Shown piece after piece: positions 25,602-60,096 of a stretch of 64,000 nt of DNA (position 1 is its first letter; every line of letters begins with the position of its first letter). Origin of the DNA: Microbacterium marinum (lineage in GTDB: Bacteria > Actinomycetota > Actinomycetes > Actinomycetales > Microbacteriaceae); assembly GCF_014204835.1 (NCBI RefSeq), contig NZ_JACHMD010000001.1, forward strand, positions 496,001 to 560,000. Direction: 5' to 3'. The notes under the pieces are model-generated. The model made no database searches. It saw nothing but the letters and a program-made list of their open reading frames with translations, and was not told where the DNA came from. The position numbers were made by a program, and so were the translations under genes.

Positions 25602-25605
25602 AAAC

Positions 25606-25640: not shown

Positions 25641-25646
25641 ACCAGC

Positions 25647-26036: not shown

Positions 26037-26096
26037 GCGGCTCTCCTCGGTACGTTGCGGGTGTCGATAATCAGGATTGCGCCTTGCATAGGCATC

Positions 26097-26110: not shown

Positions 26111-26111
26111 C

Positions 26112-29148: not shown

Positions 29149-29159
29149 CCGGAGCCCTC

Positions 29160-36621: not shown

Positions 36622-36969
36622 CTAGACGCCGAGTCTGCTCAGCAGGGACGACGCGGCGTTCGCGACGACCCCGATTTGAAACGCGACGATTGCGACGGCG
36701 ATCGCGGAGAACCACGCGATCTCGCCGATCGGGCTCCGACGGACGACGCGGTGCAACACGAGGCCGACGACCGTGCCGATCGCGACCGTCGCGCCGGCGA
36801 CCTGCGCGAACGCCATCCGCACATAGTCGGACGGTTCCGGAGCGCTCCAGCTGTTGAAGACGACCATGAGCGCGACGGGGGCAAGGAACACGCCGGCGAC
36901 CAAGATCACGCTGGCTGAGTACCCACGCAGACGGGTACCGGGCATCGGGTGCGTCGTGGTCTCGCTCAT
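36622..36969 (-). CDS. Small three-helix membrane protein
   Basis: A 115-residue protein with three hydrophobic helices (SASVILVAGVFLAPVALMVV; AGATVAIGTVVGLVLHRVV; IAWFSAIAVAIVAFQIGVV). No ribosome site precedes ATG 36969 or an in-frame ATG at 36981. It is convergent with the E2 gene, almost touching it. Function unknown. Confidence 0.55.
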   Translation of the reverse strand: MSETTTHPMPGTRLRGYSASVILVAGVFLAPVALMVVFNSWSAPEPSDYVRMAFAQVAGATVAIGTVVGLVLHRVVRRSPIGEIAWFSAIAVAIVAFQIGVVANAASSLLSRLGV

Positions 36970-37050
36970 GCTCGCGAGCATAGGGGAGATGCCGTGTGCA
37001 GACCTGCTCGAAATCGGATGCAACGGATCGGGCCCCAGTGGGCATGTACT

Positions 37051-37073
37051 GGGTGAGGGTGAGGGTGAGGGGG
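37051..37073 (+). repeat. GGGTGA tandem repeat, potential G-quadruplex
   Basis: Three GGGTGA units followed by GGGGG give four G-runs with 3-base loops on the coding strand, five bases before the ATG at 37078. It also could serve as ribosome site. It sits where accessory region 2 begins. Confidence 0.75.
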
Positions 37074-37077
37074 ACCG

Positions 37078-37191
37078 ATGACACGAATCGACCTGGACAG
37101 AAAGCTCGGCGACATGGCGATCGGCCTGCCGCGCGTTGTGACGAGCGCGGTTGCGGGCGGAGGGGGCGCCCTTCAACCTCGCCAGCTCTGA
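37078..37191 (+). pseudogene. Chimeric 37-codon frame at the element edge
   Basis: ATG 37078 opens MTRIDLDRKLGDMAIGLPR, then a glycine-rich tail and TGA at 37189. The first part looks like the beginning of a longer gene; the frame then enters the truncated SCO6880-like sequence in another register. It is probably a junction product, not a functional gene. Confidence 0.35.
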
Positions 37192-37483
37192 CAAGCCCAC
37201 CGCTCGCAATCTGACCAGTGCGCGTGCGGCTGTCGCGACGGCCGCTGAGGAGGCCGCAGGAGCCGGGCTGATCCAGTTCGGCATGCTCGTCACGGCCACC
37301 GTGCTCGACGCCTCGCAGGAGGCCGACGCAAAGGCCGCGATCGACAACCTCTCCGCTACGGCGCGACTCCGCCTGCGCCTGGTGCACGGCTCGCAGGACT
37401 CCGCTTTCGCGGCGGCGCTGCCCCTCGGTCTCGTCCTGCCGAAGCATCTGCAGGTACCCAACGAGGTTAGGGAGCAGCTGTAA
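37151..37483 (+). pseudogene. SCO6880-like conjugation protein, C-terminal fragment
   Basis: About 105 codons ending TAA at 37481-37483. ATVLDASQEADAKAAIDNLS and LRLRLVHGSQDSAFAAALPL resemble the C-terminal end of SCO6880-family proteins, which are found next to VirB4-like ATPases in actinobacterial conjugative elements. The first 300 or more codons are missing. TAATG couples it to the next gene. Confidence 0.5.
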
Positions 37484-39129
37484 TGCCCGCACTCGACGAC
37501 CAGCGCCGCCGCCGGCCTCAGAAGCGCAAGCCGCAAGAGCTCACTCCGGCCGCGAAGAGCACCCGCACGGAGAGGGAGAAGAAGCCGGCCGTCAAGCGTC
37601 CCGGCCCCCGAGGGTGGCTGGGACGTGGCCGCGGTGAGGTGGGCGTCGTCGCCCCCGTCGACGAGTGGCGCGGGACGACCGTGCAGGTGTGCGGCCTGCA
37701 CCCGTTCTCGGTCGGGAGCGGCACGCCGATGATCGGTGTGCCGATGGGATTGCAACTGTTCACGGGCGCGACGGTGTGCGCGGATCCCATTTCCTGGTTC
37801 CAGGACGCGGATCTCATCAACAACCCGTCGATGTTCGTCCTCGGGCTGCCGGGTCTCGGCAAGTCGACGTACACGCGCCGCACCGCGGCCGGTCTCGCGG
37901 GCCTGGGGACGCTGCCCTTGGTGCTCGGTGACTTGAAGCCGGACTACGTCGACATGATCCGCGCTCTAGGCGGGCAGGTCATCACCCTCGGCCGCGGTCG
38001 CGGTCACCTGAACATCCTCGACCCTGGCGAGGCATTCGAGGCTGCCGAACGACTCCGCGAAGCGGGCAAGGAGAAGGAGCGCGCGCAGGTCCTCGCGGAC
38101 GCTCACGGCCGCCGGCACACGATGGTGTCGGCGCTGCTGACGATTCTCCGCAAGGAACCGCCCACCGACCGTGAAGAGTCGATCATCGACCGTGCTCTCC
38201 GCGTGCTCGACGAGCACCACGACGGCGTACCGGTTCTCGGCGACCTGCTGCGAGTCATCCAGGAGGCACCGCAGGAGGTCCGTGACGTGGCCCTCGATCG
38301 TGGTGACCTCGGCCGCTACAAGGCGATCACCGAGAACCTCGAGGCGTCCCTGATCAGTCTCACCTCGGGCGGTCGCCTCGGTGAGACCTTCGCCCACGCC
38401 ACCGACGTTCCGATGCTGCGTGACCGTCCTGTCGTCTACGACGTCTCGTCGATCGACGATTCGGACACCGATATGCAGGCGGCGATCCTGCTCGCCTGCT
38501 GGTCGGCAGGGTTCGGCACAGTGAACGTCGCGAACGCCCTCGCGGATGCTGGGCTCGAGCCGCGCCGCCACTACTTCGTCATCCTCGACGAGCTGTGGCG
38601 TGCCCTGCGGGCCGGGCGAGGCATGGTCGACCGTGTCGACGCGCTCACGCGCCTGAACCGTCAGCGCGGCGTGGGTCTCGCAATGATTTCGCACACCATG
38701 AGCGATCTTCTGGCCCTGCCTAGCGAGGACGACCGGATGAAGGCTCGCGGCTTCGTCGAGCGCTCCGGGATGGTGGTCTGCGGTGGGCTCCCGGTGGCTG
38801 AGATGCCGCAGCTGACGACAGCGGTACCGCTGTCTCACGCGGAGCAAGAGCTTCTGACGTCCTGGCAGGACCCCGGCACGTGGGAGTCCGGGCCTGGTTC
38901 GGAACCTCCCGGGCGAGGGAAGTTCCTCATCAAGGTCGGCGGTCACCCCGGCATCCCGATCAAGGTGGAGCTCGTCGAGGCAGAGCGCTCGATCAACGAC
39001 ACCAACAAGCTCTGGCACGCGACGACCGCGTTCCCGGAACCGGACGAGTCGAACCCGATGATCGGCCTCGACGACGCCGCCCACGCGGTGCAAGAGGTTC
39101 CCGATGACCTGGAAGAGGGCGCCGCGTGA
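37483..39129 (+). CDS. VirB4/TraC-like conjugation ATPase
   Basis: A 548-residue ATPase of the type IV secretion class in actinobacterial ICEs. A basic N-terminus (1-55), then the P-loop GLPGLGKST (121-129), DLKPDYVDMIRALGGQVI, and Walker B YFVILDELW (near 366), followed by MISHTMSDLLALPSEDDRMK. It powers DNA or protein transfer across the membrane. ATG overlaps the preceding fragment stop and its end overlaps the VirD4-like gene (GTGA). Confidence 0.85.
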   Translation: MPALDDQRRRRPQKRKPQELTPAAKSTRTEREKKPAVKRPGPRGWLGRGRGEVGVVAPVDEWRGTTVQVCGLHPFSVGSGTPMIGVPMGLQLFTGATVCADPISWFQDADLINNPSMFVLGLPGLGKSTYTRRTAAGLAGLGTLPLVLGDLKPDYVDMIRALGGQVITLGRGRGHLNILDPGEAFEAAERLREAGKEKERAQVLADAHGRRHTMVSALLTILRKEPPTDREESIIDRALRVLDEHHDGVPVLGDLLRVIQEAPQEVRDVALDRGDLGRYKAITENLEASLISLTSGGRLGETFAHATDVPMLRDRPVVYDVSSIDDSDTDMQAAILLACWSAGFGTVNVANALADAGLEPRRHYFVILDELWRALRAGRGMVDRVDALTRLNRQRGVGLAMISHTMSDLLALPSEDDRMKARGFVERSGMVVCGGLPVAEMPQLTTAVPLSHAEQELLTSWQDPGTWESGPGSEPPGRGKFLIKVGGHPGIPIKVELVEAERSINDTNKLWHATTAFPEPDESNPMIGLDDAAHAVQEVPDDLEEGAA

Positions 39130-40901
39130 GTGCGACCAACAAGCGCGGCCAGGGCGTCGACGGCTCGACGATCGCACTGCTGATCGCGATGGTGACCGTC
39201 TTTCTGGTGCTGGGAGTGGTGTGGGGCGCCGTTGCGCTCGGCTCACAGCTCGACGGCGTGAATGAGGGGCAGACCTCGGACCCCTTCGAGGTGTTCTTCG
39301 GCGTGCTCCGCGGCAAGGTCGTCTGGCCGGCATCCGCCACCTGGATCGTGGCGGTGCTCGGCGGCGCCGTTCTCGCTCTGGGCATCCTCGTCGCTGTCGC
39401 GGCTGCTCGAGCACGGGGGCGCCGGTCGTCTGTTGACGCCGCCGCGACGCACATGGGCAAGGGCCGGCAGCTGCAGTCCCTCTCCGCCTCGGGCGCCCGT
39501 CAGACCGCGCAGCGTCTCGGCGTCCGCGACTGGGTCGGTGTCCTCATCGGCATCACCGTCGCCGGCAGGCAACGCATCTACGCCTCCCCCGAGGACATGA
39601 TCACGCTGGTTGCCGGCCCGCGAATCGGTAAGTCCACCGCATACGTCATCCCGGCGATCGCTGATGCTCCCGGTGCTGTGCTGACGACGTCGAACAAGCG
39701 CGACGTCCTGGACGCCACTCGCGAGCTCCGTGCCACTAAGGGGCAGGTGTGGGCCTTCGACCCGCAGAGCATCGCCCTCGGATCTCCCACCTGGTGGTGG
39801 AACCCGCTCAGCTACGTGACCGACGACGTGAAGGCCGCGAAACTGGCCGCGCACTTCGCCTCGGGCTCCCGCTCTGGCGACAGCCGCGGGGATGCCTACT
39901 TCGACAACGCCGGTCAGGATCTCCTCGCCGGCTTCCTGCTCGCCGCAGCGCTCGAGGGACTACCGATCACGACCGCCTTCACCTGGACGACCACGCCCGG
40001 TGATGATGAGCCGGTGCGGATCCTCCGCCGTCACGGGTACGAACACATGGCGGATGCCGTCTCCGGGCAGGTCAACGGCGAGTCTCGCCGTCGCGACAGT
40101 GTCTACGGCACCGCCGCGCAGATGGCGTCGTGCCTCAAGGTCCGCGCGATCGCGCAATGGGTGACACCGCAGGGCAACTCCGACTCGCGGCCGCAGTTCG
40201 ACCCGCACGCTTTCGTGCGCGGGAGCGACACGCTCTACAGCCTCTCCAAGGAGGGCCGCGGCACCGCCGGCCCGCTGGTGACCGCGCTCACGGCCGCAAC
40301 CGTCGAAGCGGCCGAGGACTATGCGACCACGCAGCCGGGCGGGCGCCTGCAGGTACCCATGGTCGGTGTTCTCGACGAGGCCGCGAACGTGTGCCGCTGG
40401 CACGACCTCCCCGACCTTTACAGCCACTACGGATCCCGTGGAATCGTCCTGATGACGATTCTGCAGTCCTGGTCTCAGGGCGTACAGGTGTGGGGCCGCG
40501 ACGGGATGCGCAAGCTCTGGAGCGCCTCGAACGTGGCCGTCTACGGCGGGGGAGTGAAGGAGCCCGAGTTCCTCAACGAGCTCTCGCAGATGATCGGTGA
40601 CTACGACCGCCGCACGACCTCCACCAGCGTCGGCCGCGGCACCCGGTCGACCTCTCACGGAGTGCAACGCGAACGCACCCTCGACGTCGCCGACCTCGGC
40701 GCACTGCCGCGAGGCCGCGCTGTCGTGTTCGCCTCTGGCGCCCCAGCCACGCTCGTCGAGACGATCCCGTGGATGAACGGGCCGCACGCGACAGCGTTGC
40801 GCGCGTCGATCGCTGCTCATGATCCCGCTCACAGCGCGCCCGCCGGTACGGATCCTGCTCGAGCTGCCGCTATTGAAGAAAGCGAGCCTCGCAATGAGTG
40901 A
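39126..40901 (+). CDS. VirD4/TraG-like coupling protein
   Basis: A 591-residue type IV coupling protein. Two membrane helices (16-40 and 72-97), P-loop GPRIGKST near 165, then NKRDVLDATRELRATKGQVW, Walker B MVGVLDEAANVC near 420, and an all-purpose QSWSQG motif. It would deliver the relaxosome to the transfer channel. No relaxase gene is visible in the window, so the element cannot transfer itself as seen. Confidence 0.9.
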   Translation: MSATNKRGQGVDGSTIALLIAMVTVFLVLGVVWGAVALGSQLDGVNEGQTSDPFEVFFGVLRGKVVWPASATWIVAVLGGAVLALGILVAVAAARARGRRSSVDAAATHMGKGRQLQSLSASGARQTAQRLGVRDWVGVLIGITVAGRQRIYASPEDMITLVAGPRIGKSTAYVIPAIADAPGAVLTTSNKRDVLDATRELRATKGQVWAFDPQSIALGSPTWWWNPLSYVTDDVKAAKLAAHFASGSRSGDSRGDAYFDNAGQDLLAGFLLAAALEGLPITTAFTWTTTPGDDEPVRILRRHGYEHMADAVSGQVNGESRRRDSVYGTAAQMASCLKVRAIAQWVTPQGNSDSRPQFDPHAFVRGSDTLYSLSKEGRGTAGPLVTALTAATVEAAEDYATTQPGGRLQVPMVGVLDEAANVCRWHDLPDLYSHYGSRGIVLMTILQSWSQGVQVWGRDGMRKLWSASNVAVYGGGVKEPEFLNELSQMIGDYDRRTTSTSVGRGTRSTSHGVQRERTLDVADLGALPRGRAVVFASGAPATLVETIPWMNGPHATALRASIAAHDPAHSAPAGTDPARAAAIEESEPRNE

Positions 40902-41307
40902 CCTTCTCGATGACTTCCGCGATGACGGCGACGACGTCGATGAGCCGACCCCTGAGCTGGTTTACGGCTCCGTCGACGAGTTCGTTCGGGAGTACCTGCG
41001 CCACATGTACACGCGCCCTGTCGGGCCCGGAAACGCCCGCTACCGGTGGGCTGCGGACTGGTGGCGCTATCCGGAGGCAGTCGCCCGCCTCGAGGGCCTG
41101 TGGCGGTCCTGGGAGCACCTGCGACTCGACCCCGCGACCGGCGCAAGCGTCTGGTGGCGCGACCACGCAGACCCCCACATGCACCTACTGCTGAGCCCAG
41201 ACGGACCCTTCGCAAAGTCGAAAGATGCGTGCGAGCCCGGCGAGCCGTTGCCGTACACGGAACCGCCCAAGATGTGGTTTCCCGATGTGAGACTCATGGG
41301 CGATTGA
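40894..41307 (+). CDS. DUF4913 domain protein
   Basis: A 137-residue protein with an acidic start and a tryptophan-rich DUF4913 domain (RWAADWWRYPEAVARLEGLW, then DPATGASVWWRDHADPHM). This family regularly follows TraG-like genes in actinobacterial conjugative elements. It overlaps the coupling protein by 8 bases. The next 210 bases (41308-41518) hold no gene I can support. Confidence 0.85.
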   Translation: MSDLLDDFRDDGDDVDEPTPELVYGSVDEFVREYLRHMYTRPVGPGNARYRWAADWWRYPEAVARLEGLWRSWEHLRLDPATGASVWWRDHADPHMHLLLSPDGPFAKSKDACEPGEPLPYTEPPKMWFPDVRLMGD

Positions 41308-41518
41308 CTCTCATCATCGGCAGTTCGACTAGCCGTACTGCAATCGGGAACACGGCAGCGCACCTGCTCGACCTCCTTGCATGTCGCGATACAGCTCTCA
41401 GCACATCTGCGAGATCCGCGCTCGCGACCGCCTCGCTCAGCTTCTCCAGCGCCGAGGTGACGGATACATGAGGTCCCGGCAGCACCCTTGCGAGGCCACC
41501 GGGACTTCTGTGTCTAGA

Positions 41519-41860
41519 TCAGCGCCCGAGGTTCGCGATCGCGCGCTGGTAGGCGTCGAGGTTGAGACGCCTACCCACAGCGACAGCCTCGATTGCGACG
41601 GCGTTGATTTCATCAGGCGTGTAGCGGTACACAAGCCGATAACGAGGCTTGCCGGACCCGTCCGGGTCGAAGTAGAGCTTGTAGCAATCGCCCAGGTCGC
41701 CCGTCCCGACTCGGGAGTCGAGCTTCATTCCCGTGAACTTGCCGTCCCGGACGAGCACCAGCATGTCGAGAGCCATCTTCTTGGTGGCCTGGTCGGGAAG
41801 CGCGTCGATGTCTTGCTGAAAGCCGGGCAGGATGGCTGTCAGCTTGAGCGGTGCCGTCAT
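41519..41860 (-). CDS. RelE-like toxin
   Basis: A 113-residue protein of the RelE/ParE fold (ILPGFQQDIDALPDQATKKM, then YKLYFDPDGSGKPRYRLVYR and EAVAVGRRLNLDAYQRAI). It probably cleaves mRNA at the ribosome. It starts in the stop codon of its antitoxin (TGATG overlap). The usual order, antitoxin first, is kept. Confidence 0.75.
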   Translation of the reverse strand: MTAPLKLTAILPGFQQDIDALPDQATKKMALDMLVLVRDGKFTGMKLDSRVGTGDLGDCYKLYFDPDGSGKPRYRLVYRYTPDEINAVAIEAVAVGRRLNLDAYQRAIANLGR

Positions 41861-42162
41861 CAGCGGTAGCTGTCAGGATCAAGCCCCAAACCGGCGGCGA
41901 TGTCGGACAGCGAACCAGACTGGCCGGCTGCGACGCGCTCGCGAACCTGGTGGGCGATCTCGAGATCCTCGATCACCGGCAGCAGTTCGGCATACAGCTC
42001 GAACGGGATGACGACGCCCTCAGCACGGCGGTGACCGCCGAACACAACGGGCTGCGCCAGGGCACCCTCCGAGCGAAATCGCCGCAGGGCATCCGGTAAG
42101 GCCGCTCGCGCCTCGGAGGTGGGCAGCACGGACAGAATTGGCAGAGCGAATCCGAACGACAT
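41860..42162 (-). CDS. Phd/YefM-like antitoxin
   Basis: A 100-residue protein with an N-terminal Phd-like fold (LPILSVLPTSEARAALPDAL, then VVFGGHRRAEGVVIPFELYA) and an acidic C-terminal helix likely to cap the toxin. ATG 42162 is chosen over the upstream in-frame ATG at 42240 because the fold begins there. TGTACG direct repeats at about 42171 and 42194 may be the autorepression site. Confidence 0.75.
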   Translation of the reverse strand: MSFGFALPILSVLPTSEARAALPDALRRFRSEGALAQPVVFGGHRRAEGVVIPFELYAELLPVIEDLEIAHQVRERVAAGQSGSLSDIAAGLGLDPDSYR

Positions 42163-42492
42163 GGCTCTACTGTACGCGAATTGGTGCAAAAGTTGTACGA
42201 GTTTTTGCGCTGGTAGCTGCTCCGAATTGCTCTCTGTCACGGCGGATCTGAGTCAGGTACTCGAACGAGGCTGCCGCTTAGTGCTTTTCAAGCGTCGGCG
42301 CGGTTCGCATTCGTCCTGGCCCGGATGCTCGGGCTTGCGGGGCGTCGTCCTCGTGCACGAAATCGCAGAGGTTGTCATCATCCTGATACGGCATCCGCGC
42401 GGCCCGCGGGTCAGGACCTCGTCAGGCGGACACACCGACACACTTCCGGGCGAACACTCCTGCAATCGCCCGGTTGATATAGTTTCACCGCC
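42163..42492. other. Gap without a gene
   Basis: 330 bases between the antitoxin and the membrane gene. It holds the presumed toxin-antitoxin promoter (TGTACG repeats, 42171-42200) and a TATAGT -10 box at 42478-42483 for the next gene. The reading frames inside it look like noise. Confidence 0.6.
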
Positions 42493-42912
42493 ATGGTTGG
42501 GATGCCGCTCACGCACGCGACATCAGTAGCCATCACCGCCCGACCGATAACGAAACTCATTACGGTCGCCATCGCAGTCCTCTTGCTGATGGGCGGGATC
42601 CTGGCGATGTCCCATGTGGACGGTGTCGCGGGCACGCCGGTACCCGCGGTGAGCAACGCCTCCCCGTCCTCTACGGAGGCGACCGCATCTCTCACGGCTC
42701 CTTCCGACGACGTTGTTGCGATGACAGTAGGCGTTTGCATCTTCGGCGTGGTTTGCTGCCTGCTTGGATTCGCGTGGCTGCATCGAGTTTTCGCGCTCTT
42801 CGGTCGACGTCGACTCATCGGTTCAACACGACGTGTGCGACTGGCGATCACCCCGCGCCGCGCACACGTCCCGAGGTCGACGCTCGCTCTTCTTTGCATT
42901 GCCCGGATCTGA
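42493..42912 (+). CDS. DUF6153-like two-helix membrane protein
   Basis: A 139-residue protein. Helix 1 (TVAIAVLLLMGGILAMSHV) and helix 2 (MTVGVCIFGVVCCLLGFAWL) flank a Ser/Thr-rich extracellular loop; a basic cytosolic tail follows. The LAMSHV ending of helix 1 and two-helix plan resemble DUF6153 proteins seen near metal resistance genes. TATAGT ends nine bases before the ATG. It precedes the CDF operon by 201 bases. Confidence 0.5.
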   Translation: MVGMPLTHATSVAITARPITKLITVAIAVLLLMGGILAMSHVDGVAGTPVPAVSNASPSSTEATASLTAPSDDVVAMTVGVCIFGVVCCLLGFAWLHRVFALFGRRRLIGSTRRVRLAITPRRAHVPRSTLALLCIARI

Positions 42913-43113
42913 GCACAGTCTCCACCGCCTAATCGGCTGGCACCCGCCTCTTCGCGGCTGCCGCCGGCACCGGCCGCGAGGGTCACGCCGCGGGCGACGA
43001 TGCGTGCTGCTTGTCGGCGACAACTCAGCATGCACCCCATCTGCGCGTTCGCCGGTGGCGGTCGCGTGATGAGTGCCTAGCGAATCCATCTTTCCTGCGA
43101 GAGGAGCGGACAC

Positions 43114-44025
43114 ATGGGAGCAGATCACAGCCATGGGACAGTGCAGGGAGCGCCGCGACGGCGTCTGCTGATCGCTTTCGCGATAACAGGCTCGGTCTTT
43201 GTGATCGAGGTCGTGGGCTCAGTGATCACTGGCAGCCTGGCCCTACTCATCGACGCAGCACACATGCTTACCGATGTCATTGGTTTGGGCCTCGCAGTCA
43301 CCGCGGCCCATCTGATGAATCGTGCCCCGACAGACCGCCACACGTGGGGGCTGCGTCGCGCTGAAGTGTTGGGCGCTTTGACTCAGGCGGCCTTGCTGTT
43401 GGGGGTCGGGTTGTTTGCCCTTGTCGAGGGAATCCGGCGTCTATTTGAACCTCCCGAGATTTCTTCCGGCGCGCTCCTCTTCTTCGGTGTCGTCGGCCTG
43501 GTCGCGAATATCGCTTCATTGCTCGTGCTGCTGAGCGGGCGCAAGAAGAACCTCAACATGCGGGCCGCCTTCCTGGAGGTTCTCAACGATGCGCTGGGGT
43601 CGGTCGGTGTGATCGCCAGCGCAATCGCGATCACAGCATTCGGGTGGTATCAGGCCGACGCGGTCGCAGGAATCCTGATCGCACTGCTCATCATTCCCCG
43701 AACACTAATCCTGCTCCGCACTGCAGGGAGCGTGCTGCTTGAGTCCACCCCACCGGGCCTAAACCTCCAGGACGTGCGTCGGCACCTGCTGGAGCTACCC
43801 CATGTCATCGCCGTCCACGACCTTCACGCATCGCAGGTGTCGACAGACTTGCCGACCCTGACCGCGCATGTGGTGGTGGATGACGGGCTCAACGGCGAGG
43901 AATCCGCGCAGCTGCTGCGGTCACTGCAGGTGTGTGTGAGTGATCACTTCCCGGTCATCATCGAGCACTCGACCTTCCAGATCGAACCCCAATCGCACTT
44001 CGGAGAGCACCGCACCCATGCGTAA
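43114..44025 (+). CDS. Cation diffusion facilitator metal exporter
   Basis: A 303-residue CDF/CzcD transporter of Zn, Cd or Co out of the cell by proton antiport. Six helices; the metal site is in LLIDAAHMLTDVIGLGLAV (helix 2, His/Asp) and AAFLEVLNDALGSVG (helix 5, Asn/Asp), followed by a cytosolic domain with DLHASQVSTDLPTLTAHVVV. A short N-terminal His stretch (GADHSHG) is present. GAGAGGAG precedes the start. It overlaps the next gene by 8 bases, the first of six coupled junctions. Confidence 0.94.
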   Translation: MGADHSHGTVQGAPRRRLLIAFAITGSVFVIEVVGSVITGSLALLIDAAHMLTDVIGLGLAVTAAHLMNRAPTDRHTWGLRRAEVLGALTQAALLLGVGLFALVEGIRRLFEPPEISSGALLFFGVVGLVANIASLLVLLSGRKKNLNMRAAFLEVLNDALGSVGVIASAIAITAFGWYQADAVAGILIALLIIPRTLILLRTAGSVLLESTPPGLNLQDVRRHLLELPHVIAVHDLHASQVSTDLPTLTAHVVVDDGLNGEESAQLLRSLQVCVSDHFPVIIEHSTFQIEPQSHFGEHRTHA

Positions 44026-44371
44026 TAGACACTGTCGGTGGTTCACCGTCACGATGCTCGCCGCGGTAGTCGCCGGATCGGCGATCGTCGCACCGGCTGC
44101 CGCAGCCGAGCCCCGCGAGCTCACCACAGTGCCCCCGACGCCCAAGGCGAGCGGCTCGGAACCAACCCTCAGCCCGTCACCCCCGCCCACTCCCGCGGGA
44201 GACGTACACAACGAACCCAACTCAACCGGCCAAGTCTTGCCGCTCGTAGGACTTGTCAGTGGGGTCGCAATCATTGGCGGCTGTCTGATCGTCGTGGTCA
44301 TGATGGGCCGAGAACGGCGCCGCCGCGATCTCGCCGAACTGGAAACTGGGGAGGGATCCGATGAGCGCTAA
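44018..44371 (+). CDS. Secreted or anchored Pro/Ser-rich protein
   Basis: A 117-residue protein with a signal peptide (residues 1-31, FTVTMLAAVVAGSAIVAPAA), a Pro/Thr/Ser linker and one C-terminal transmembrane helix (LVGLVSGVAIIGGCLIVVVM) before a basic-acidic tail. It starts inside the CDF gene and overlaps lspA by 11 bases. No family is recognised. Confidence 0.65.
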   Translation: MRNRHCRWFTVTMLAAVVAGSAIVAPAAAAEPRELTTVPPTPKASGSEPTLSPSPPPTPAGDVHNEPNSTGQVLPLVGLVSGVAIIGGCLIVVVMMGRERRRRDLAELETGEGSDER

Positions 44372-44897
44372 TCGGCTCCGCCTCGTCGCTCTCGCAGTCA
44401 TCACCGCCGGGCTCACCGTCCTCATTGACCAAGGCACCAAAGCCAACGCATTAAGCGGGTTGAGCCCTAGCGAGCGCATCCCCTTGATTGGGGATCTCCT
44501 CGGTTTGCAGCTGGCTTTCAACGCAGGAGCGTTTCTCTCCTGGGGTTCGAACATGACCTGGGTGCTGACCACGCTCGGCGTGGTCGCGACCGCGCTTCTC
44601 GGTATTGCCGCGTGGCGCTCGCGAACGCCGGGGTGGGCTGTCGGAATGGGGCTCGTCCTCGGCGGTGCGATAGGGAACCTCATTGACAGGCTCTTCTTCT
44701 ACCCCGCGTTCGGTCGCGGCTACGTCATCGACTTCTTGGCGTACGGGAACCTCTTCATCGGAAATCTTGCTGATGTCGCACTCGGTGCCGGTGGAGGTGT
44801 TCTGCTTATCAGCCTGTGGCGGCGACGGCGGCACCACCGGGCGACGGCACAACACGGTGACTCGCACGCACGGGTGCCGGATGAGCGTGCGCTATGA
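44361..44897 (+). CDS. lspA: Lipoprotein signal peptidase II
   Basis: A 178-residue, four-helix aspartyl protease that cleaves prolipoproteins. Conserved blocks: VLIDQGTKANAL, AFNAGAFLSWG, GGAIGNLIDRLF (catalytic Asp about 110) and IDFLAYGNLFIGNLADVALG (catalytic Asp about 138), where FN-AD reads GN-LAD. This is an accessory copy in a metal cluster. The secretory protein before it has no lipobox, so its substrate lies elsewhere. Confidence 0.92.
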   Translation: MSANRLRLVALAVITAGLTVLIDQGTKANALSGLSPSERIPLIGDLLGLQLAFNAGAFLSWGSNMTWVLTTLGVVATALLGIAAWRSRTPGWAVGMGLVLGGAIGNLIDRLFFYPAFGRGYVIDFLAYGNLFIGNLADVALGAGGGVLLISLWRRRRHHRATAQHGDSHARVPDERAL

Positions 44898-45229
44898 CCA
44901 AGAAGCAGCGCACCCCCTCCACCTACCAGCGCAACGCTCTGGCGCCGGCACTCATCGCAGCGGCGGTGTTGTTCCTGGCCCCCACCCTGCTCGAGAGCGA
45001 CTGGTTTACGGTCGTGCGGTTCGTGGTCGCCATCCTCGCGGCGATCGCCGCGTGGTTCGCTTTCCAGGCCCGACAGTGGTGGTGGATCCCAGTGCTCGCG
45101 ACGATCGTCGTGCTCTGGAATCCCATCTTCCCGTTCCCCTTCTCAGGGCCCGTGTGGTCGGCGGCGCAACCGGTCGCCGCGGTTGCGTTCCTCATTGCCG
45201 GTCCACTCATCAAGGTGCGTCGACCGTGA
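44894..45229 (+). CDS. Small four-helix membrane protein
   Basis: A 111-residue protein with a basic start and four hydrophobic helices (ALIAAAVLFLAPTLLES onward, ending AAVAFLIAGPLIKVRRP), compatible with DUF6804. A WNPIFPFPFSGPVW loop with two prolines lies between helices 3 and 4. ATGA overlap with lspA. Function unknown. Confidence 0.65.
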   Translation: MTKKQRTPSTYQRNALAPALIAAAVLFLAPTLLESDWFTVVRFVVAILAAIAAWFAFQARQWWWIPVLATIVVLWNPIFPFPFSGPVWSAAQPVAAVAFLIAGPLIKVRRP

Positions 45230-45327
45230 GATCACGCGAACACCCCAGCGGCACGGCACCGCCGCAGCACGCCCCACCGAGGAGGACAACGAAGCAGTGG
45301 CTGCCGGGGTGGGGGGCCATGCGGTGA
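45226..45327 (+). CDS. Possible 33-residue coupling peptide
   Basis: GTGA overlap with the gene before (45226-45229) and GTGA overlap with the start of the CtaG-like gene (45324-45327) frame a 33-codon, basic, proline-rich frame. It may be only a spacer that keeps ribosomes moving; an alternative start for the next gene at 45297 (after GAGGAGG) would make it unnecessary. Confidence 0.3.
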   Translation: MRSREHPSGTAPPQHAPPRRTTKQWLPGWGAMR

Positions 45328-46265
45328 GCGCTTGGATCCCCGACGCGCCGCCTTCGTTCCTCGCGTTTCTCACTCCCTATCCGCAGCCGTTTCCGGTGCT
45401 TCCGGTCGTCGCGATCGTGCTTGCGGCCGCGTACGTGGCAGGAGTGGTCCGATTGCGGCAGCAGCGGAGACGCTGGTCGGTGGCGCGCGCGGGGTCGTTC
45501 CTGCTGGGATGTGTGATCCTGTTTGTCGTCACCGGTCTGGGTGTCGAGAACTACAGCTACGCACTGTTCTCCGTTTCGATGTTCCAGCAGCTGACCTTGA
45601 TGTTCACCATCCCGCCGCTGCTGATCCTGGGGTCTCCCGGAACGTTGCTTCTGCGCTCGACACCACACCACGGCCTGGGCCTCATCCTCCTTCGACTGGC
45701 GCATGCGGGCCTGCGCAGCAGAGCCGCTCGATGGGCGCTGAGCCCCGCCGTCGCGGTGCCCCTACACCTGTTGGCGTTCTACGGGTTGTACCTCGCCAAA
45801 CTTGCCGACCCGATCCTCACCGTGCCCGGCGGACATCAGCTCCTCGATGTCGCATTTTTGACGGTCGGGGTCCTGTTCACGGTACCGATTCTTTCCAACG
45901 ATCCGCTGCCCTCGCGGATGTCCTACCCGGGCAGGGCTCTCGATCTGTTTGCCGAGGCGGCGCTCCACGCGTTCTTCGGGGTGTTTCTCATGATGAGCAC
46001 CACCCTCCTGGTCGACCGCTTCGCCGCTCCGCCCGCCGCGTGGGGCATTGAACCTCTCGATGATCAGTGGCTGGCAGGTGCACTTGCATGGTCCTACGGC
46101 GAAGGTCCCACGCTTCTCATGCTGATCTACGTCGTGCATCGGTGGTTCCGCGACGACACACGACGCGCCGTCGAAGCCGACCGGCACGCTGACGCGCACG
46201 GGCACGCCGACCTCGACGCGTACAACGAATACCTCACCGCCCTCGCCCGAAAGGACGCCCAATGA
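45324..46265 (+). CDS. CtaG-like cytochrome c oxidase assembly protein
   Basis: A 313-residue, seven-helix caa3_CtaG-type membrane protein. Family marks: LFSVSMFQQLTLMFTIPPLL, ILGSPGTLLLRST, LLDVAFLTVGVLFTVPILSN, and FAEAALHAFFGVFLMMSTTL. In CtaG proteins the His residues near the membrane surface bind copper; several such His are seen (ALHAFF, VVHRWF). The C-terminal tail is rich in His/Asp (ADRHADAHGHADLD), a likely metal ligand patch. GTG 45324 or 45297. Confidence 0.85.
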   Translation: MSAWIPDAPPSFLAFLTPYPQPFPVLPVVAIVLAAAYVAGVVRLRQQRRRWSVARAGSFLLGCVILFVVTGLGVENYSYALFSVSMFQQLTLMFTIPPLLILGSPGTLLLRSTPHHGLGLILLRLAHAGLRSRAARWALSPAVAVPLHLLAFYGLYLAKLADPILTVPGGHQLLDVAFLTVGVLFTVPILSNDPLPSRMSYPGRALDLFAEAALHAFFGVFLMMSTTLLVDRFAAPPAAWGIEPLDDQWLAGALAWSYGEGPTLLMLIYVVHRWFRDDTRRAVEADRHADAHGHADLDAYNEYLTALARKDAQ

Positions 46266-47695
46266 GACGCCGCAACCCGGAGGGACCCCTGCATGTGCCT
46301 GACGTTGACTGCGGGTGCGCCCCCACAGCCGACGAGCTGCGATCGCTCCGCACCATTTCCCGCCGTGGCGTCGTCGGCTTGGCCGCGATAGGAGTCGTGG
46401 TCGGATCGGTGGGGCTGGGCGTAGCGGTACCGGCGTTCGCGGCGAAGTATCCCACGTGGGACGACGTGGAGAAAGCGCGTGCCAATCAGGCCGCAAAGAG
46501 CACTGAGATTGCCCGTATCGAAGGCCTCATCCGCGGCCTCGAACGCGACGTCGACGCGAAACAAGCCGAGGCGGAACGGCTGGGGCAGGAGTATCTGCTC
46601 GCTCTTGAAGCGTTTGAGGATGCCGTCGACCGGGCGCAGACCCTCCAGGATCAGGCTGACGCCGAAACTGCCCGTGCTCGTGAGGCAGCGGCGAAGCTCG
46701 GCGACCTCGCCGCGTTGCAGTACCGCAACGGGAAAAGTGATCCTACCCTCGAACTGTTCTTCTCGGGTTCCGGGGCGGATGCCGACGACCTGCTTGCGCG
46801 TCTCGGCGCCGTCGACAAGCTCGTCGACGCGAATCGTGACGTGTATGCGGACGCCGCCGGCGCACGTGACAGCGCCCAGAGCCTCACCGACCAGGCCAAG
46901 GTCGCGCGCGATGAGCGAGACCGTTTGAAGCTGCAAGCTGAGGAGCGCATGGACGCGGCGCGACAGGCCGCGCAGGCCGCGCAGGCAGCACTCCTCGCGC
47001 AGAGTGAGCACCGGCTCACCCTCGAAGCGCAGCTCTCGGCGCTGCAAGACACCACCGCCAAAACCACTGCCGGATATCGGGCAGGTGTGGTAGCCGAGCG
47101 CAAGCGCCGTGAAGAAGCACAGCGGAAAGCCAGAGAGCAAGCCGCCCAGCGGGCACGCGAGGAAGAACGCCGCCGGCTCGAGGAAGAGGAACGCCGCCGC
47201 CAACAAGCCGCAGCAGGCGGAGGCAGCCAGCCGGGAAGACCCAGTGCCGGTAGCTCACCCGGCGGCCGTCCCGGCTCCGCCGGGTGGGTGCGGCCTGCGC
47301 ACGGAGGGGTGACATCTCCCTTCGGGTCGCGCGGCACAATCTGCAGTAACGGGTACTGCACATCCAGCGGCCACCGCGGACTCGACTTCTCCGCAGGCTG
47401 CGGCGCACCGCTATACGCCGCAGCAGCAGGAACGGTCATCTTTGCCGGGTGGAGTGGTTCTTGGGGCAACTACGTCAAGATTCAACACCGCGACGGCAGC
47501 GTCACCGCCTACGCGCATATCCTCAACGGTGGGTACAACGTCAGCTATGGGCAGACGGTGCGCGCCGGGCAGGTCATCGCCTATGCCGGCACCACCGGAG
47601 CCTCCACCGGATGCCACCTCCATTTCGAGGTATACATCGGCGGGGTGCGGGTCGACCCAGCAGCCTTCCTCCGAGCACGCGGAGTCGGCCTCTGA
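46262..47695 (+). CDS. M23 family metallopeptidase with coiled coil
   Basis: A 477-residue secreted or anchored peptidoglycan endopeptidase. TM or signal helix (residues 40-60, VVGLAAIGVVVGSVGLGVAV), a long coiled coil (75-300; EEERRRLEEEERRRQQAA), then the LytM domain with zinc ligands in SGHRGLDFS and HLHFE and a GASTGCHLHF motif. A four-cysteine start (VDCGCAP) may bind metal. ATGA overlap with the CtaG-like gene. Coiled-coil M23 proteins usually act as cell-division or export hydrolases or activators. Confidence 0.9.
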   Translation: MRRRNPEGPLHVPDVDCGCAPTADELRSLRTISRRGVVGLAAIGVVVGSVGLGVAVPAFAAKYPTWDDVEKARANQAAKSTEIARIEGLIRGLERDVDAKQAEAERLGQEYLLALEAFEDAVDRAQTLQDQADAETARAREAAAKLGDLAALQYRNGKSDPTLELFFSGSGADADDLLARLGAVDKLVDANRDVYADAAGARDSAQSLTDQAKVARDERDRLKLQAEERMDAARQAAQAAQAALLAQSEHRLTLEAQLSALQDTTAKTTAGYRAGVVAERKRREEAQRKAREQAAQRAREEERRRLEEEERRRQQAAAGGGSQPGRPSAGSSPGGRPGSAGWVRPAHGGVTSPFGSRGTICSNGYCTSSGHRGLDFSAGCGAPLYAAAAGTVIFAGWSGSWGNYVKIQHRDGSVTAYAHILNGGYNVSYGQTVRAGQVIAYAGTTGASTGCHLHFEVYIGGVRVDPAAFLRARGVGL

Positions 47696-47957
47696 CAATG
47701 CAACCCTCGACATCGCTAGTCGTACGGAGGCTCCGACGCTCAGTGTCGGTTCCTCTCCTCATCAACTACCGAGCCAAACCGGCGATGGTAGGCGGGGCGC
47801 ACTCCCTCGTCGCCCTGCGGCAGCTGCGTGATGGTGCCACGACTCTGCCAGTTCGAGCAGGCCCACACCCCCGATGGGTCTGCCCGAACCCCTACCCGAT
47901 GCCCGCATGTCAGGCGCCAATAGATCGCACACACCGTCAGAATGATCAGGAGTTTCC

Positions 47958-48629
47958 GTGAAACCTGCAGCAAGAGCCACTATCGTGACGATCGCCGTGG
48001 TCGTTGTCCTCGTCGCACTTGTTGCCGCGATCGCGTTCATCAACCGTCCGGAAGCGCCCACACCCCCGGCCGCGACCGACGGGGCACTCCCCGGGGCTCG
48101 TGCCAATTCCCATGTTCTCGATGACGCCGGGCCCGACGCGCCAACCCTGGTCGAGTTCCTCGACTTCGAATGCGAGGCGTGCGGAGCGTTCTACCCGGTC
48201 GTAGAACAGCTTCGTGAGGAGTACGCCGGGGACATCAATTTCGTGGTCCGGTATTTCCCGCTTCCAGGGCACTTCAACTCGATGAACGCCGCCCTCGCGG
48301 CAGAAGCGGCCGCTCAACAAGACGAGTTCGAAGCCATGCACAGCCGTCTCTTCGAAACCCAAGCTGAATGGGGGGAACTCCGCGAGTCCCGCGCGGAGCT
48401 GTTCCGCAGCTACGCCGAAGACCTCGGCCTCGACATGGATGCCTATGACGCTGCGGTTGCGGACCCGGCAACGCAGCAGCGGGTAGAGGAGGACTTCAAC
48501 GATGGGCAGTACCTTAACGTCACCGGCACTCCCACCTTCTTCCTCGACGGCGAGAAGCTGGAACTCGAGCAACTTTCCGACCTCACCGACGCGCTCGACC
48601 AAGCAACAGGTCGCGCACCGCAGCAATGA
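47958..48629 (+). CDS. Membrane-anchored DsbA-like thioredoxin
   Basis: A 223-residue protein: one helix (10-28, IVTIAVVVVLVALVAAIAF), then a thioredoxin fold with redox pair Cys72-Glu-Ala-Cys75 (FLDFECEACGAFYPVV) and the cis-proline loop TGTPTFFLDG. It would form disulfides outside the membrane. A gap of 262 bases separates it from the M23 gene, so it may have its own promoter; CAGGAG precedes the GTG at 47958. Confidence 0.9.
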   Translation: MKPAARATIVTIAVVVVLVALVAAIAFINRPEAPTPPAATDGALPGARANSHVLDDAGPDAPTLVEFLDFECEACGAFYPVVEQLREEYAGDINFVVRYFPLPGHFNSMNAALAAEAAAQQDEFEAMHSRLFETQAEWGELRESRAELFRSYAEDLGLDMDAYDAAVADPATQQRVEEDFNDGQYLNVTGTPTFFLDGEKLELEQLSDLTDALDQATGRAPQQ

Positions 48630-48640
48630 CGGATTTCTGA

Positions 48641-48877
48641 CGATGCCTCTATGACACCAGTACGAGAGTTTCTCAAACCGCGTCTTTCGTCGAGAGTTAC
48701 CTACAGTTTGAGAAGATTCCCGGCAATCTGATCGTCGATGCATGCGCAGAGGTTGCCCTCATCCTGAGCCGTCATACCGGCGCCGATCGAGTCGCCATAA
48801 GGAGAGCCCTGCGACAAAGTCTCGCCGAATGCGAAGGCTGCAGGCTAATCAGCCTGGAGTTGCTCAGCCGCATTTAG
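48641..48877 (+). other. Gap with inverted repeat and an open frame lacking a start
   Basis: TTCTCAAAC at 48670-48678 is inverted at 48706-48714 (GTTTGAGAA). The frame 48641-48877 is open and reads like protein in part (VESYLQFEKIPGNLIVDA, then ECEGCRLISLELLSRI) but has no ATG or GTG. It may be the 3' remnant of a lost gene. The following 95 bases hold nothing I can name. Confidence 0.35.
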
Positions 48878-48972
48878 ACAGCGCGCCACTCGGCCCCTCA
48901 CCCGTCTCGGGTTGACCGATAATCGACGTTATGTCAGAAGACTGACGCGGCCGCCGCGGTGGGCGTCTCCCC

Positions 48973-49497
48973 TCACTGTTCCGGAAGTACGGAATCGAAC
49001 TTTTCGTTAGCCTTTCTGGACCGCCAGTAGGTGCGCTCGACGGTGGGCATATCTACCCCGAAAGTCTGATCTTCGAAGGGGTGGTGATGCGGTCGCCGAT
49101 CGCCTTCTGCGCCTTCTACAGGCATCAGAAGCGACCCGCTTACGACGATCCGCTGGACTTCGTCCACATCGGCGTCGCGGGGCCCTTTGTAGTTGACCTG
49201 AAGCACCGCGGCGCGCTTCGCGATGCGGGTGCCGTTGGGATTGACGTCATCGACGAGCTGGACCCACTCAGCGACAGTCCGTGAGATGGTCACATCTACT
49301 TCCACCGACTCGCCGGGGTGCAGCTGCTCTCGGAAAGGGTTCATGGACACGCCCCGTGTCCCGATGAACCGAAGTGTTGCCGAGCTCGGCCCATCGTTGC
49401 GTGCCGTGAATGAGTAGGCCGTTTCGATAGAGGTGCCAGCGTCTCGCGGGAGCTTAAAGACGTCGCTATCCGTTGTCGGCCTGCGCACAGTGATCAC
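48973..49497 (-). CDS. Hypothetical protein
   Basis: A 174-residue soluble protein with a beta-rich middle (ETAYSFTARNDGPSSATLRF, HPGESVEVDVTISRT) that could be an immunoglobulin-like fold, and a C-terminal EDQTFGVDMPTVERTYWRSR stretch. GTG 49497 has no ribosome site. I do not recognise a family. GC and neighbours put it at the right edge of accessory region 2. Confidence 0.5.
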   Translation of the reverse strand: MITVRRPTTDSDVFKLPRDAGTSIETAYSFTARNDGPSSATLRFIGTRGVSMNPFREQLHPGESVEVDVTISRTVAEWVQLVDDVNPNGTRIAKRAAVLQVNYKGPRDADVDEVQRIVVSGSLLMPVEGAEGDRRPHHHPFEDQTFGVDMPTVERTYWRSRKANEKFDSVLPEQ

Positions 49498-49608
49498 TCC
49501 GGCTGAGGAGCGTTAGCCGCGAACCGCTCCCAGACGGAGGGACTGCCGGATGCCGCGTGCGAGCGCAACCCCGTCGCGCGGGCGGAGCGGGCGGTGCACG
49601 CTCGGAGC

Positions 49609-51572: not shown

Positions 51573-52556
51573 ATGATCTCCCGCGTGCCCGTCTCCATCG
51601 CCGTCCTCGGCGCAGCCGCCGTCGCCCTCGTGGGTTGCGCGACGCCTGTGGGGGAGGATGATCGCGCGCTGACGGTCGTCGCATCGACCAGCGTCTACGG
51701 CTCGCTCGCCGCGGCGATCGGCGGGGACAGCGTCGAGGTCGTCTCGATCATCGACTCGCTCTCGCAGGACCCGCACTCCTACGAGGCGTCCGCGCGCGAA
51801 CAGCTCACGGTCGCGGACGCCGACCTCATCCTCGAGAACGGCGGAGGCTACGACGCCTTCATCGACGCGCTCATCGACGCGAGCGGATCGGATGCCACCG
51901 TGCTCACCGCCGTCGAGTACTCGCACGACTACCCCGAGAACGACGGGCACGCAGACGACGGGCACGCCGAAGACGACGAGCACGCGGAAGACGACCACGC
52001 CCACGACCACGCGGGTCACGACCACATCGAGGGCTTCAACGAGCACGTCTGGTACGACCCGCACACCGTCGTCCACCTCGTCGAGGACATCGCTCACGAG
52101 CTGGGCGAACTGGATGCCGCGAACGCGGACACCTACGAGGCGAACGCGGCCGACCTGGTCGCTCAGATCGAGGGTCTCGAAGCATCGCTCGGCGAGATCG
52201 CGGCTGAGAACGAGGGCGAGCAGATCTTCGTGACGGAGCCGGTCCCGGTGTACCTCGCGGCGGCGGCCGGTCTCGTCGACGCGACGCCCGCCGCGTTCAG
52301 CGAGGCCGTGGAGGAGGGGCAGGACGTCCCGCCGGCGACGCTGCTGGAGGCACGCGACATCCTCGCGTCGGGCGATGTCCGCGCCGTGATCACCAACGCC
52401 CAAACGGGTGGCGCCGAGACGACGGAGATCGTCTCGCTCGCCGAGGATGAGGGTATTCCGGTCATCGAGTTCACCGAGCTCCTCCCCGAGGGACTCGACT
52501 ACGTGGAGTGGATGCAGGAGAACATCGACGCGCTCGCGGGTAGCCTGACGGAGTGA
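51573..52556 (+). CDS. znuA: Zinc ABC transporter substrate-binding lipoprotein
   Basis: A 327-residue lipoprotein; lipobox VALVGC with Cys22 for lipid attachment. Cluster A-I fold: VVASTSVYGSLAAAIGGDSV, then DPHSYEASAREQLTVADADL, a His/Asp-rich loop (HADDGHAEDDEHAEDDHAHD, about residues 127-146) typical of ZnuA, HVWYDPHTVVHLVEDIAHEL, and EFTELLPEGLDYVEWMQENI. It captures Zn(II) outside the membrane. First gene of the Zur-controlled operon, GTGA overlap with znuC. Confidence 0.96.
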   Translation: MISRVPVSIAVLGAAAVALVGCATPVGEDDRALTVVASTSVYGSLAAAIGGDSVEVVSIIDSLSQDPHSYEASAREQLTVADADLILENGGGYDAFIDALIDASGSDATVLTAVEYSHDYPENDGHADDGHAEDDEHAEDDHAHDHAGHDHIEGFNEHVWYDPHTVVHLVEDIAHELGELDAANADTYEANAADLVAQIEGLEASLGEIAAENEGEQIFVTEPVPVYLAAAAGLVDATPAAFSEAVEEGQDVPPATLLEARDILASGDVRAVITNAQTGGAETTEIVSLAEDEGIPVIEFTELLPEGLDYVEWMQENIDALAGSLTE

Positions 52557-53395
52557 GCGACCGCACGGCATCCGACCCGACGGGTGCGCAGCCGGTCCTC
52601 GAGATCCACGGTGCGGCCCTCCGTCGTGACGGCCGGGAGCTCTGGGCGGGCCTCGACCTCACCGTCGAGCCCGGAGAGCTGATCGCCGTCCTCGGCCCCA
52701 GCGGCTCGGGCAAGACCACGCTCCTGCGAGCGATCCTCGGCCTCGAGGACCTCAGCGAGGGAACCGTCTCGGTCAGCGGCAAGCCCGTCCGCCGCTCCGG
52801 CAACCGCAGCATCGGCTATCTGCCGCAGACGCGTCCGCTTCCCCGCGACACCGCCCTGCGCGGTCGCGACCTCGTCGCGCTCGGCGTCAACGGCCACCGG
52901 TTCGGCGTGCCCCTGTCGCGCCGCCGCGATCGCGAGCGGGTCGATGCGCTGGTGAGCGCCGTCGGCGCCGACAGCTTCGCGGACCGCCCCGTGGGCGTGC
53001 TCTCCGGCGGCGAGCAGCAACGACTGCGGGTCGGGCAGGCTCTCGCCGACGACCCTCAGCTGCTCCTGTGCGACGAGCCCCTCACGAGCCTCGACCTCGC
53101 CAACCAGCAGGGAGTCGTGAAGCTCATCGACTCACACCGGCGCACCGGTGCCGCGGTGCTGCTCGTCACCCACGACATCAACCCGGTGCTCGGCAAGGTC
53201 GACCGCATCCTCTACATCGCGAACGGCCGCTTCACCCTCGGCAAGCCGAAGGACGTGCTCACCTCGCCGGTGCTGACCGACCTCTACGGGGCGCCGGTGT
53301 TCGTGCTGCGCGCGGGCGACCGCCTCGTCGTCGTCGGTGCGCCGGATGCCGAGGCCTCGCACCACCACCATCACGATCACGAGGGCCACGCATGA
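52553..53395 (+). CDS. znuC: Zinc ABC transporter ATPase
   Basis: A 280-residue ATPase. Walker A GPSGSGKTT (48-56), Q-loop LPQTRPLPRD, signature VLSGGEQQRLRVGQAL, Walker B LLLCDEPLTSLD, switch VTHDINPVL. A C-terminal His tract (SHHHHHDHEGHA) may buffer zinc. Overlaps znuA and znuB by four bases each. Confidence 0.96.
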   Translation: MSDRTASDPTGAQPVLEIHGAALRRDGRELWAGLDLTVEPGELIAVLGPSGSGKTTLLRAILGLEDLSEGTVSVSGKPVRRSGNRSIGYLPQTRPLPRDTALRGRDLVALGVNGHRFGVPLSRRRDRERVDALVSAVGADSFADRPVGVLSGGEQQRLRVGQALADDPQLLLCDEPLTSLDLANQQGVVKLIDSHRRTGAAVLLVTHDINPVLGKVDRILYIANGRFTLGKPKDVLTSPVLTDLYGAPVFVLRAGDRLVVVGAPDAEASHHHHHDHEGHA

Positions 53396-54291: not shown

Positions 54292-54301
54292 AATCCCGGC
54301 C

Positions 54302-60092: not shown

Positions 60093-60096
60093 TCGC

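Follow-up and report, generated by a model that had tools for sequence, protein, structure and literature searches.

A recurrent mobile gene cluster joins metal export to extracytoplasmic maturation genes in Microbacterium

Introduction

The proteobacterial, MerR-controlled pbr lead-resistance operon encodes the signal-peptidase-like PbrC, so that an SPase II-type gene stands within a metal operon; we know of no respiratory assembly set in it. Listeria and Enterococcus are said to carry a copper-induced mobile operon, lit2/lgt2, described by Armbruster et al. in 2019. Here, we analyse an operon of Microbacterium marinum in which a cation exporter gene is followed by genes for an additional lipoprotein signal peptidase (LspA) and other envelope proteins, located in a 64,000-nucleotide stretch of the genome (positions 496,001 to 560,000 of contig NZ_JACHMD010000001.1), which we call the window.

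The nearest precedent for this locus is lit2/lgt2, which is likewise mobile, tied to metal resistance and equipped with second lipoprotein-maturation enzymes, as seen in the parts of three papers on which we draw (PMC8275575, PMC7387801, PMC8689077). According to those parts, the enzymes are Lgt2 and Lit2, whereas the Microbacterium clusters carry LspA and Lnt; no cytochrome c, CtaG, DsbA or M23 set is mentioned there, and copper induction is demonstrated for lit2/lgt2, while the Microbacterium cluster is known from its genes alone. In Brevibacterium, too, the excerpt used here (PMC12467314) shows genomic metal islands on which lspA stands beside cadmium and zinc genes and the gene of a ResA thiol oxidoreductase (lspA with cmtR, czcD, resA and ctpG); that excerpt lists lspA, does not interpret it and mentions no DUF6804-linked cluster. 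Among the matches listed in open-licence papers, we found no description of the cluster reported below. Those matches mention neither a gene set of this extent nor the LspA clade linked to DUF6804 and how widely it occurs in Microbacterium; the principle already has precedent in Firmicutes.

Results

The window operon is a divergent, reduced member of a recurrent mobile cluster family in Microbacterium. An alignment of DUF6804, the small membrane protein encoded directly after LspA (Table 1), was scanned against one genome per species, which confirmed 100 relatives; the best 80 were kept as loci, with near-identical clusters retained separately in the counts. LspA lies no more than 300 bp upstream of DUF6804 in 64 of the 80, and CopC or CtaG-type genes accompany the pair at all 64 loci. 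Cytochrome c biogenesis genes are present at 59 of them, DsbA-like genes at 58, a metal exporter at 57, Lnt at 55 and M23 at 49, and cytochrome c, copper, Lnt and metal genes occur jointly at 47. The 16 DUF6804 loci with no upstream LspA include one with CopC/CtaG, one with cytochrome c genes, one with a DsbA-like gene and six with a metal exporter; neither Lnt nor M23 was found at any of the 16. The families making up the full clusters are metal pumps, CopC, CtaG, TlpA-CcdA-ResB-CcsB, Lnt, DsbA and M23.

The original prediction, made from the window alone, had proposed a single metal and envelope unit that would be undone by finding its genes apart in relatives. They are found together, the same families recurring on plasmids and chromosomes, and a one-off island is ruled out by the recurrent DUF6804- and LspA-centred loci. 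Support is good for a genuine and mobile unit that combines metal export with envelope maturation; the exact gene order of the window was not found again among the mapped loci. A run of CDF, CopC or a short gene, LspA, DUF6804 and CtaG is seen in the window and at 16 of the 64 loci when intervening CopC and zf-TFIIB genes are passed over, and the order LspA-DUF6804-TlpA-CcdA at 40 of 64. The CtaG-M23-DsbA end of the window operon was not met in the DUF6804 loci mapped; CtaG is followed by M23 once, at L052 (L numbers are our labels for sequence stretches), where the genes are on the opposite strand and the CtaG is a more distant one.

Clusters of this family are shared as large blocks. Those of the L006 group are 99.4-99.8% identical in DNA over 15-18 kb among plasmids and contigs from species with different names. 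In the L007 group, the identity between such plasmids and contigs is 99.6-99.99%; the near-identical comparisons include two plasmids, and other cluster groups are 91-97% identical. Two Microbacterium plasmids were the only ones with DUF6804 among the plasmids searched. Related sets in different orders are present on five of six plasmid stretches from other actinobacterial genera, the sixth, from Streptomyces (L102), having LspA without the cluster set. The five, from Rhodococcus (pBD2), Arthrobacter (FB24), Citricoccus, Cnuibacter and Cellulosimicrobium, hold varying subsets of metal, CtaG, CopC, CcdA/TlpA/ResB, Lnt/Lgt, M23 and DsbA-like genes; they differ from the Microbacterium clusters in order, in giving no DUF6804 match and in sometimes containing Lgt (L101, L103), SURF1 (L099, L101), VKOR or ctaD (L100), with Lnt in L100 and L103. 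Viral contigs gave 13 pattern matches, none of which was confirmed. Two contigs titled Acidobacteria and Planococcus (L027, L094) carry Microbacterium-like clusters, and these titles are probably wrong.

The LspA proteins of these clusters are distinct from the housekeeping enzyme. In a 100-row tree, a 100/99 branch separates the 21 housekeeping rows from all others, including the window protein; the latter sits on a long branch, in an unsure place among mostly DUF6804-linked rows, in a tree for which the tool warned of long branches meeting. The window LspA matches PF01252 and has both Asp109 and Asp138, which we take to be the catalytic pair of LspA; Asp109 is present in 123 of 123 accessory LspA proteins and Asp138 in 122 of them. 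The loop between the DF and NLAD motifs is 9 residues long in 120 of the 123, versus 11-17 residues in 21 of 21 housekeeping proteins. Non-synonymous divergence (dN) of LspA is well below synonymous divergence (dS) in six of six pairs. When 198 genomes of the genus were searched with the window LspA, 69 had a best E <= 2e-36 and the other 129 a best E >= 3e-26, a split counted by hand from the search table. The window protein is divergent, its nearest matches in the genus search being 63-69% identical.

Neighbourhoods separate the two kinds of LspA as well. At the 40 best places of this search outside the source genome, cluster or metal genes were found in 40 of 40, with a metal gene within ~6 kb in 26, compared with none of 20 housekeeping places on either count; the LspA- and DUF6804-centred sets share genomes and are not independent. 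At E<=1e-20, LspA matches were obtained in 26 of 296 genomes drawn from the phylum, the source genome included. Eight places outside the genus were opened and showed no cluster genes, except for one distant P-type ATPase match; among the six with genes listed, five matches lie beside an RluD-like gene and four near FtsZ (names assigned by eye). The module LspA therefore seems to be chiefly a trait of Microbacterium, with divergent relatives on plasmids.

In the source genome, a single contig of 3.12 Mb, lspA is matched five times: once in the window, twice in a second cluster (L012), once behind an ArsR-P-type ATPase pair (L014) and once at the housekeeping gene (L016), which adjoins FtsZ-cluster genes (neighbours named by eye). 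The second cluster comprises ArsR, P-type ATPase, DsbA, CcsB, LspA, M23, CopC, LspA, DUF6804 and CtaG, together with an opposed ArsR-CDF pair. A lone DUF6804 gene without LspA lies ~50 kb to the left of the operon (L011:10857-11168).

Lipid anchors are predicted for several proteins that LspA could process. Lipoboxes were predicted in 62 of 87 module TlpA proteins, 11 of 20 DUF3515-like proteins and 6 of 14 DUF305 proteins, and the single COX2 match of the host (CtaC) has the lipobox TLAAC. The DUF3515 protein (for example L076:3622-4194, PF12028 3.3e-14) was met at 20 cluster loci and is a possible client of LspA and Lnt.

Table 1 Features of the M. marinum operon and of the insertion that carries it, in window coordinates
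Feature	Position	Strand	Evidence
CDF cation exporter (predicted)	43114..44025	+	PF01545 Cation_efflux 1.6e-42; PF16916 8.5e-10; TIGR01297 6.6e-73
'Stalk' Pro/Ser protein	44018..44371	+	ATG start at 44018; 43% over 77 aa to the L006 CopC tail
Accessory lipoprotein signal peptidase LspA	44361..44897	+	PF01252 Peptidase_A8 2.4e-24; both Asp conserved; outside housekeeping clade
DUF6804 small membrane protein	44894..45229	+	PF20619 4.7e-17; ATGA overlap with lspA
CtaG-type (Caa3_CtaG) copper/oxidase assembly factor	45297..46265	+	PF09678 1e-67; 70% to L006 CtaG; start inferred
Secreted coiled-coil M23 endopeptidase (predicted), zinc ligands intact	46262..47695	+	PF01551 1.9e-30; HRGLD, HLH; 8i6o_E match
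Membrane-anchored DsbA-like thioredoxin, CEAC	47958..48629	+	PF13462 Thioredoxin_4 4e-24; PF01323 4.8e-18
Insertion relative to genome G015	36630..49595		blastn against L209: matches stop at 36629 and restart at 49596
Conjugation remnant, three ORFs, the last a TraG/VirD4-type coupling protein	37151..40901	+	family scan

Within the window, Pfam and NCBIfam matches bear out the gene content and order that had been predicted, all on one strand. The left end, drawn at an open reading frame (ORF) at 42493-42912, does not hold: this ORF has no Pfam/NCBIfam match and no codon-usage prediction and was matched at none of the 140 loci tallied (80 + 40 + 20), and we dropped it as an operon member. Overlaps of 4-11 bases, claimed for the run of genes, exist at four junctions (CDF/Pro-Ser 8 bp, Pro-Ser/LspA 11 bp, LspA/DUF6804 4 bp and CtaG/M23 4 bp). 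The DUF6804-CtaG junction is most likely a 67-bp gap rather than an overlap, the best CtaG start being a GTG at 45297 behind AGGAGG; an alternative TTG start at 45183 would give a 47-bp overlap. In a comparison restricted to ATG and GTG starts, with TTG excluded, 23 of the 24 relatives that have this gene pair show all listed in-frame CtaG starts after the stop codon of DUF6804, and in the remaining one (L033) starts fall on both sides of it. M23 and DsbA are 262 bp apart. The histidine-rich CtaG tail is likewise present (RHADAHGHADL) and turns out to be modest, with 1-4 His in the last 45 residues across 48 unique CtaG proteins, the window included; the tail is not conserved, and we rejected it as a metal sensor.

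A start allowing a 4-bp ATGA-type overlap of LspA and DUF6804 exists at 64 of 68 places (the 64 LspA-DUF6804 loci, L006, L007, L012 and the window), a count that took the in-frame start nearest to such an overlap and so records the existence of a start, not its use. Gene starts are approximate, since genes were predicted by a home-made codon model. Coupling by itself is unremarkable because 31 of 103 same-strand neighbours outside the operon overlap too, and gene overlap was set aside as special evidence. It is the conserved neighbourhood, rather than overlap, that exceeds chance.

Both CDF domains, Cation_efflux and the dimerisation domain, were matched in the window exporter, for which a role in export is predicted. 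The Pro/Ser protein that follows has a signal peptide, a Pro/Ser linker, one transmembrane helix and an RRRRD tail (signal peptide and helix assigned by eye), and no Pfam family or CopC domain (PF04234) was found in a scan of the ORF from 43940, which covers all of it. Within the clusters, CopC is matched at 62 of 64 loci, and the gene just upstream of LspA, among those listed, often ends in a Pro/Ser linker, a transmembrane helix and an RRRRDR tail. By pattern, 42 of 63 such pre-LspA genes have CopC motifs and 21 do not, 3 of the 21 retaining the first CopC residues. The window protein looks like a CopC stripped of its copper domain, and would be CopC-derived at most, its gene perhaps being kept for coupling to LspA. 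This short gene won no place in the mapping of 85 + 60 loci, so that the link to CopC rests on its 77-residue match and its position. Decay of the short CopC-like gene was considered and given less weight: in pairs of relatives, which do not include the window copy, dN/dS is below 1 in six of six (0.28-0.82), a weaker constraint than on LspA.

In CtaG, His114 and His214 (numbered from 45327) are invariant in the 48 unique sequences. The window M23 protein retains the HxxxD and HxH ligands, as does the L012 copy, and its residues 81-474 match 8i6o_E with an E of 1e-8. The L006 copy (L006:17923-19329) has Asn for the first His of HxH and is possibly an activator rather than an enzyme. Both motifs were matched in 14 of 40 predicted M23/M23long proteins, a number to which truncated predictions may contribute. 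The CEAC motif is kept in 94 of 95 related DsbA-like predictions.

The operon is carried by a ~13-kb insertion that is absent from the relative G015. Of the 28 genomes searched with the pyruvate dehydrogenase E2 encoded next to the insertion, G015 gave the best match (93%). At the empty site of G015, homologues of this E2 gene and of the gene at 49609 lie 544 bp apart. The last ORF of the conjugation remnant (39126-40901) matches PF12696 TraG-D_C at 5.1e-32 and PF02534 at 1e-17; the other two (37151-37483 and 37483-39129) gave no family match in the domain scan, and a P-loop-like GLPGLGKST is visible by eye in the longer one. Of the parts of an integrative conjugative element, the TraG-type coupling protein alone was identified, and no systematic search was aimed at an integrase, a relaxase or att sites. 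At 41519-42240, two small genes on the minus strand overlap each other and appear toxin-antitoxin-like by eye; they have no Pfam/NCBIfam match.

Other metal-related genes are present in the window. About 14 kb to the left of the operon, 23847-29561 holds ArsR, an ACR3 arsenite pump (TIGR00832 7.3e-130) and further ArsR- and ArsC-like genes (ArsC-like by eye). A ZnuA-like gene with a His-rich loop (by eye), an ABC ATPase, a permease-like gene and a Fur-family regulator occupy 51573-54712, a block that begins 2 kb to the right of the island and in G015 comes after the empty site. At 59686-60402, a ribosomal L33 gene (NF001860) with L28- and S14-like neighbours (by eye) encodes a protein without cysteines, so that this ribosomal set may be zinc-independent; presumably, it could represent zinc-independent paralogues under a Zur-type regulator. 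The CtaG/CopD-type gene at 62235-64000, 66% identical to the copy in an M. sediminis plasmid cluster, is probably a housekeeping counterpart of module genes.

Discussion

We tentatively read the window operon as a reduced copy of a mobile cluster that ties metal export to a second, transferred set of extracytoplasmic maturation enzymes and thereby allows assembly of lipoproteins and of the cytochrome bcc-aa3 chain to go on under zinc, cadmium or copper stress, an explanation that we favour while stopping short of calling it probable. CDF or P-type pumps would eject zinc and cadmium, and perhaps copper, and the expelled soft metal could build up on the outer side of the membrane, where it may hit steps needing free thiols, haem or copper, namely lipoprotein maturation, haem c attachment and oxidase copper insertion. 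LspA, with Lnt in the full clusters, would add capacity for maturing lipoproteins, TlpA and the oxidase subunit CtaC among them, while ResB/CcsB/CcdA/TlpA would supply cytochrome c, CopC and CtaG copper sites, and DsbA disulfides; of these functions, the window copy would retain export, LspA, CtaG, M23 and DsbA. The source genome has its own housekeeping LspA, one Lnt and one ResB beside CcsB/CcdA/TlpA; given this host Lnt and ResB-CcsB-CcdA-TlpA set, the cluster duplicates functions and is a spare, not the sole source. Metal induction, the substrates and the protective role are proposed from gene content. The sections of published work used here offer parallels: copper impairs lipoprotein acylation in E. 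coli, whose cutE locus harbours lnt (PMC6538781; commentary PMC6593411); cadmium reduces both the content of cytochrome c and the activity of cbb3 in R. gelatinosus without cadA (PMC7283390); and CopC/CopD domains and CtaG are involved in oxidase function in B. subtilis (PMC13344008).

Several observations weigh against this reading. No Lnt or cytochrome c biogenesis genes were matched at the window operon, and a lipobox could not be seen by eye in any of its proteins; the substrates of LspA must then be encoded elsewhere. No ArsR adjoins the operon, and nothing there matches the operator-like repeats that were seen in front of two ArsR-CDF pairs; a local ArsR-type operator was considered and none was recognised, so metal control is something we infer. 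There is no metal gene within ~6 kb at 14 of the 40 accessory LspA loci, 9 of the 16 lone DUF6804 loci have some metal-type gene (ArsR in 6), and the cluster counts are inflated because near-copies were not collapsed. M23 is not explained by respiration, and the Pro/Ser protein gave no more than a sub-cutoff NCBIfam match to His-rich BRANT (0.0043). In E. coli, copper acts at the Lgt step, as stated in the parts of the work consulted (PMC6538781, PMC6593411), and no lgt or lit family was found among the operon proteins in Pfam/NCBIfam scans, the absence of lgt being the adverse point.

The explanations that we consider less apt differ in which genes they account for. A response to metal stress in which M23 acts to remodel the wall or envelope was the emphasis of the original prediction and is supported by the intact zinc ligands of the window protein and by M23 at 49 of 64 clusters. 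M23 is nevertheless found less regularly than any of the other five gene classes counted; the commoner occurrence of copper delivery, cytochrome c biogenesis, DsbA-like and Lnt genes instead points to lipoprotein and respiratory-complex maturation. With the Asn-bearing L006 copy and the 14 of 40 predictions that match both motifs also against it, we consider wall remodelling very unlikely; M23 near 8 of 40 accessory LspA places points the same way, a weak count because M23 often lies beyond Lnt and the stretches reach only ~6 kb. Remodelling of the surface itself is merely unlikely. Here, faster or altered lipoprotein maturation would lower metal binding at the membrane, as proposed for Lit2, and the respiration genes would be a separate benefit on the element. 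The precedent is the copper-induced mobile operon with lit2 and a second lgt, and N-acylation is suggested to limit copper coordination in the parts of those papers used (PMC8275575, PMC7387801, PMC8689077), to which the frequency of Lnt (55 of 64 clusters) may be added; however, LspA alone, as in the window and at the ArsR-P-ATPase-LspA loci L014 and L172, would not alter the acylation type, and Lnt is no more frequent than the cytochrome c or the CtaG-type genes. A copper-supply device, in which CopC and CtaG feed copper to the oxidase when zinc or cadmium compete and LspA matures copper chaperones or CtaC, would fit the CopC or CtaG-type genes at all 64 clusters and the work on YcnJ and CtaG in B. 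subtilis, as far as the cited portion goes (PMC13344008). It leaves Lnt, M23 and the cytochrome c genes unexplained, the window CopC-like protein has no copper domain, and we find it quite unlikely.

Chance gathering of unrelated envelope genes on resistance islands would account for members that vary between loci, for a window order not met again and for the divergence of the window LspA (63-69%), but the recurrent order with a possible 4-bp overlap at 64 of 68 places, the low dN relative to dS of LspA in all six pairs and block transfer make such hitchhiking highly improbable. Duplication of the target of natural LspA inhibitors (globomycin, myxovirescin), as in Myxococcus, is extremely improbable: inhibitor producers do carry extra lspA, according to the part of the source used (PMC8689077), and the short loop sets 120 of 123 accessory proteins apart from all 21 housekeeping ones, yet the metal and cytochrome genes would have no explanation.

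A bolder form of the favoured reading, in which maturation is replaced rather than supplemented, appears rather doubtful to us. The mobile kit would bring metal-tolerant substitutes for the whole extracytoplasmic assembly line, allowing respiration to continue while the housekeeping enzymes are poisoned, with the short-loop LspA as a metal-adapted isoenzyme and DUF6804 as a dedicated LspA partner. The source genome has its own housekeeping LspA, one Lnt and one ResB beside CcsB/CcdA/TlpA; given this host Lnt and ResB-CcsB-CcdA-TlpA set, the cluster duplicates functions and is a spare, not the sole source. Metal resistance is usually accounted for by export, sequestration or chemical conversion. 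If replacement of parts does occur, transferable replacement of poisoned membrane assembly would add another class of resistance, analogous to the replacement of antibiotic targets, and would explain why lspA, lnt, ctaG and cytochrome c genes are found on some actinobacterial metal plasmids.

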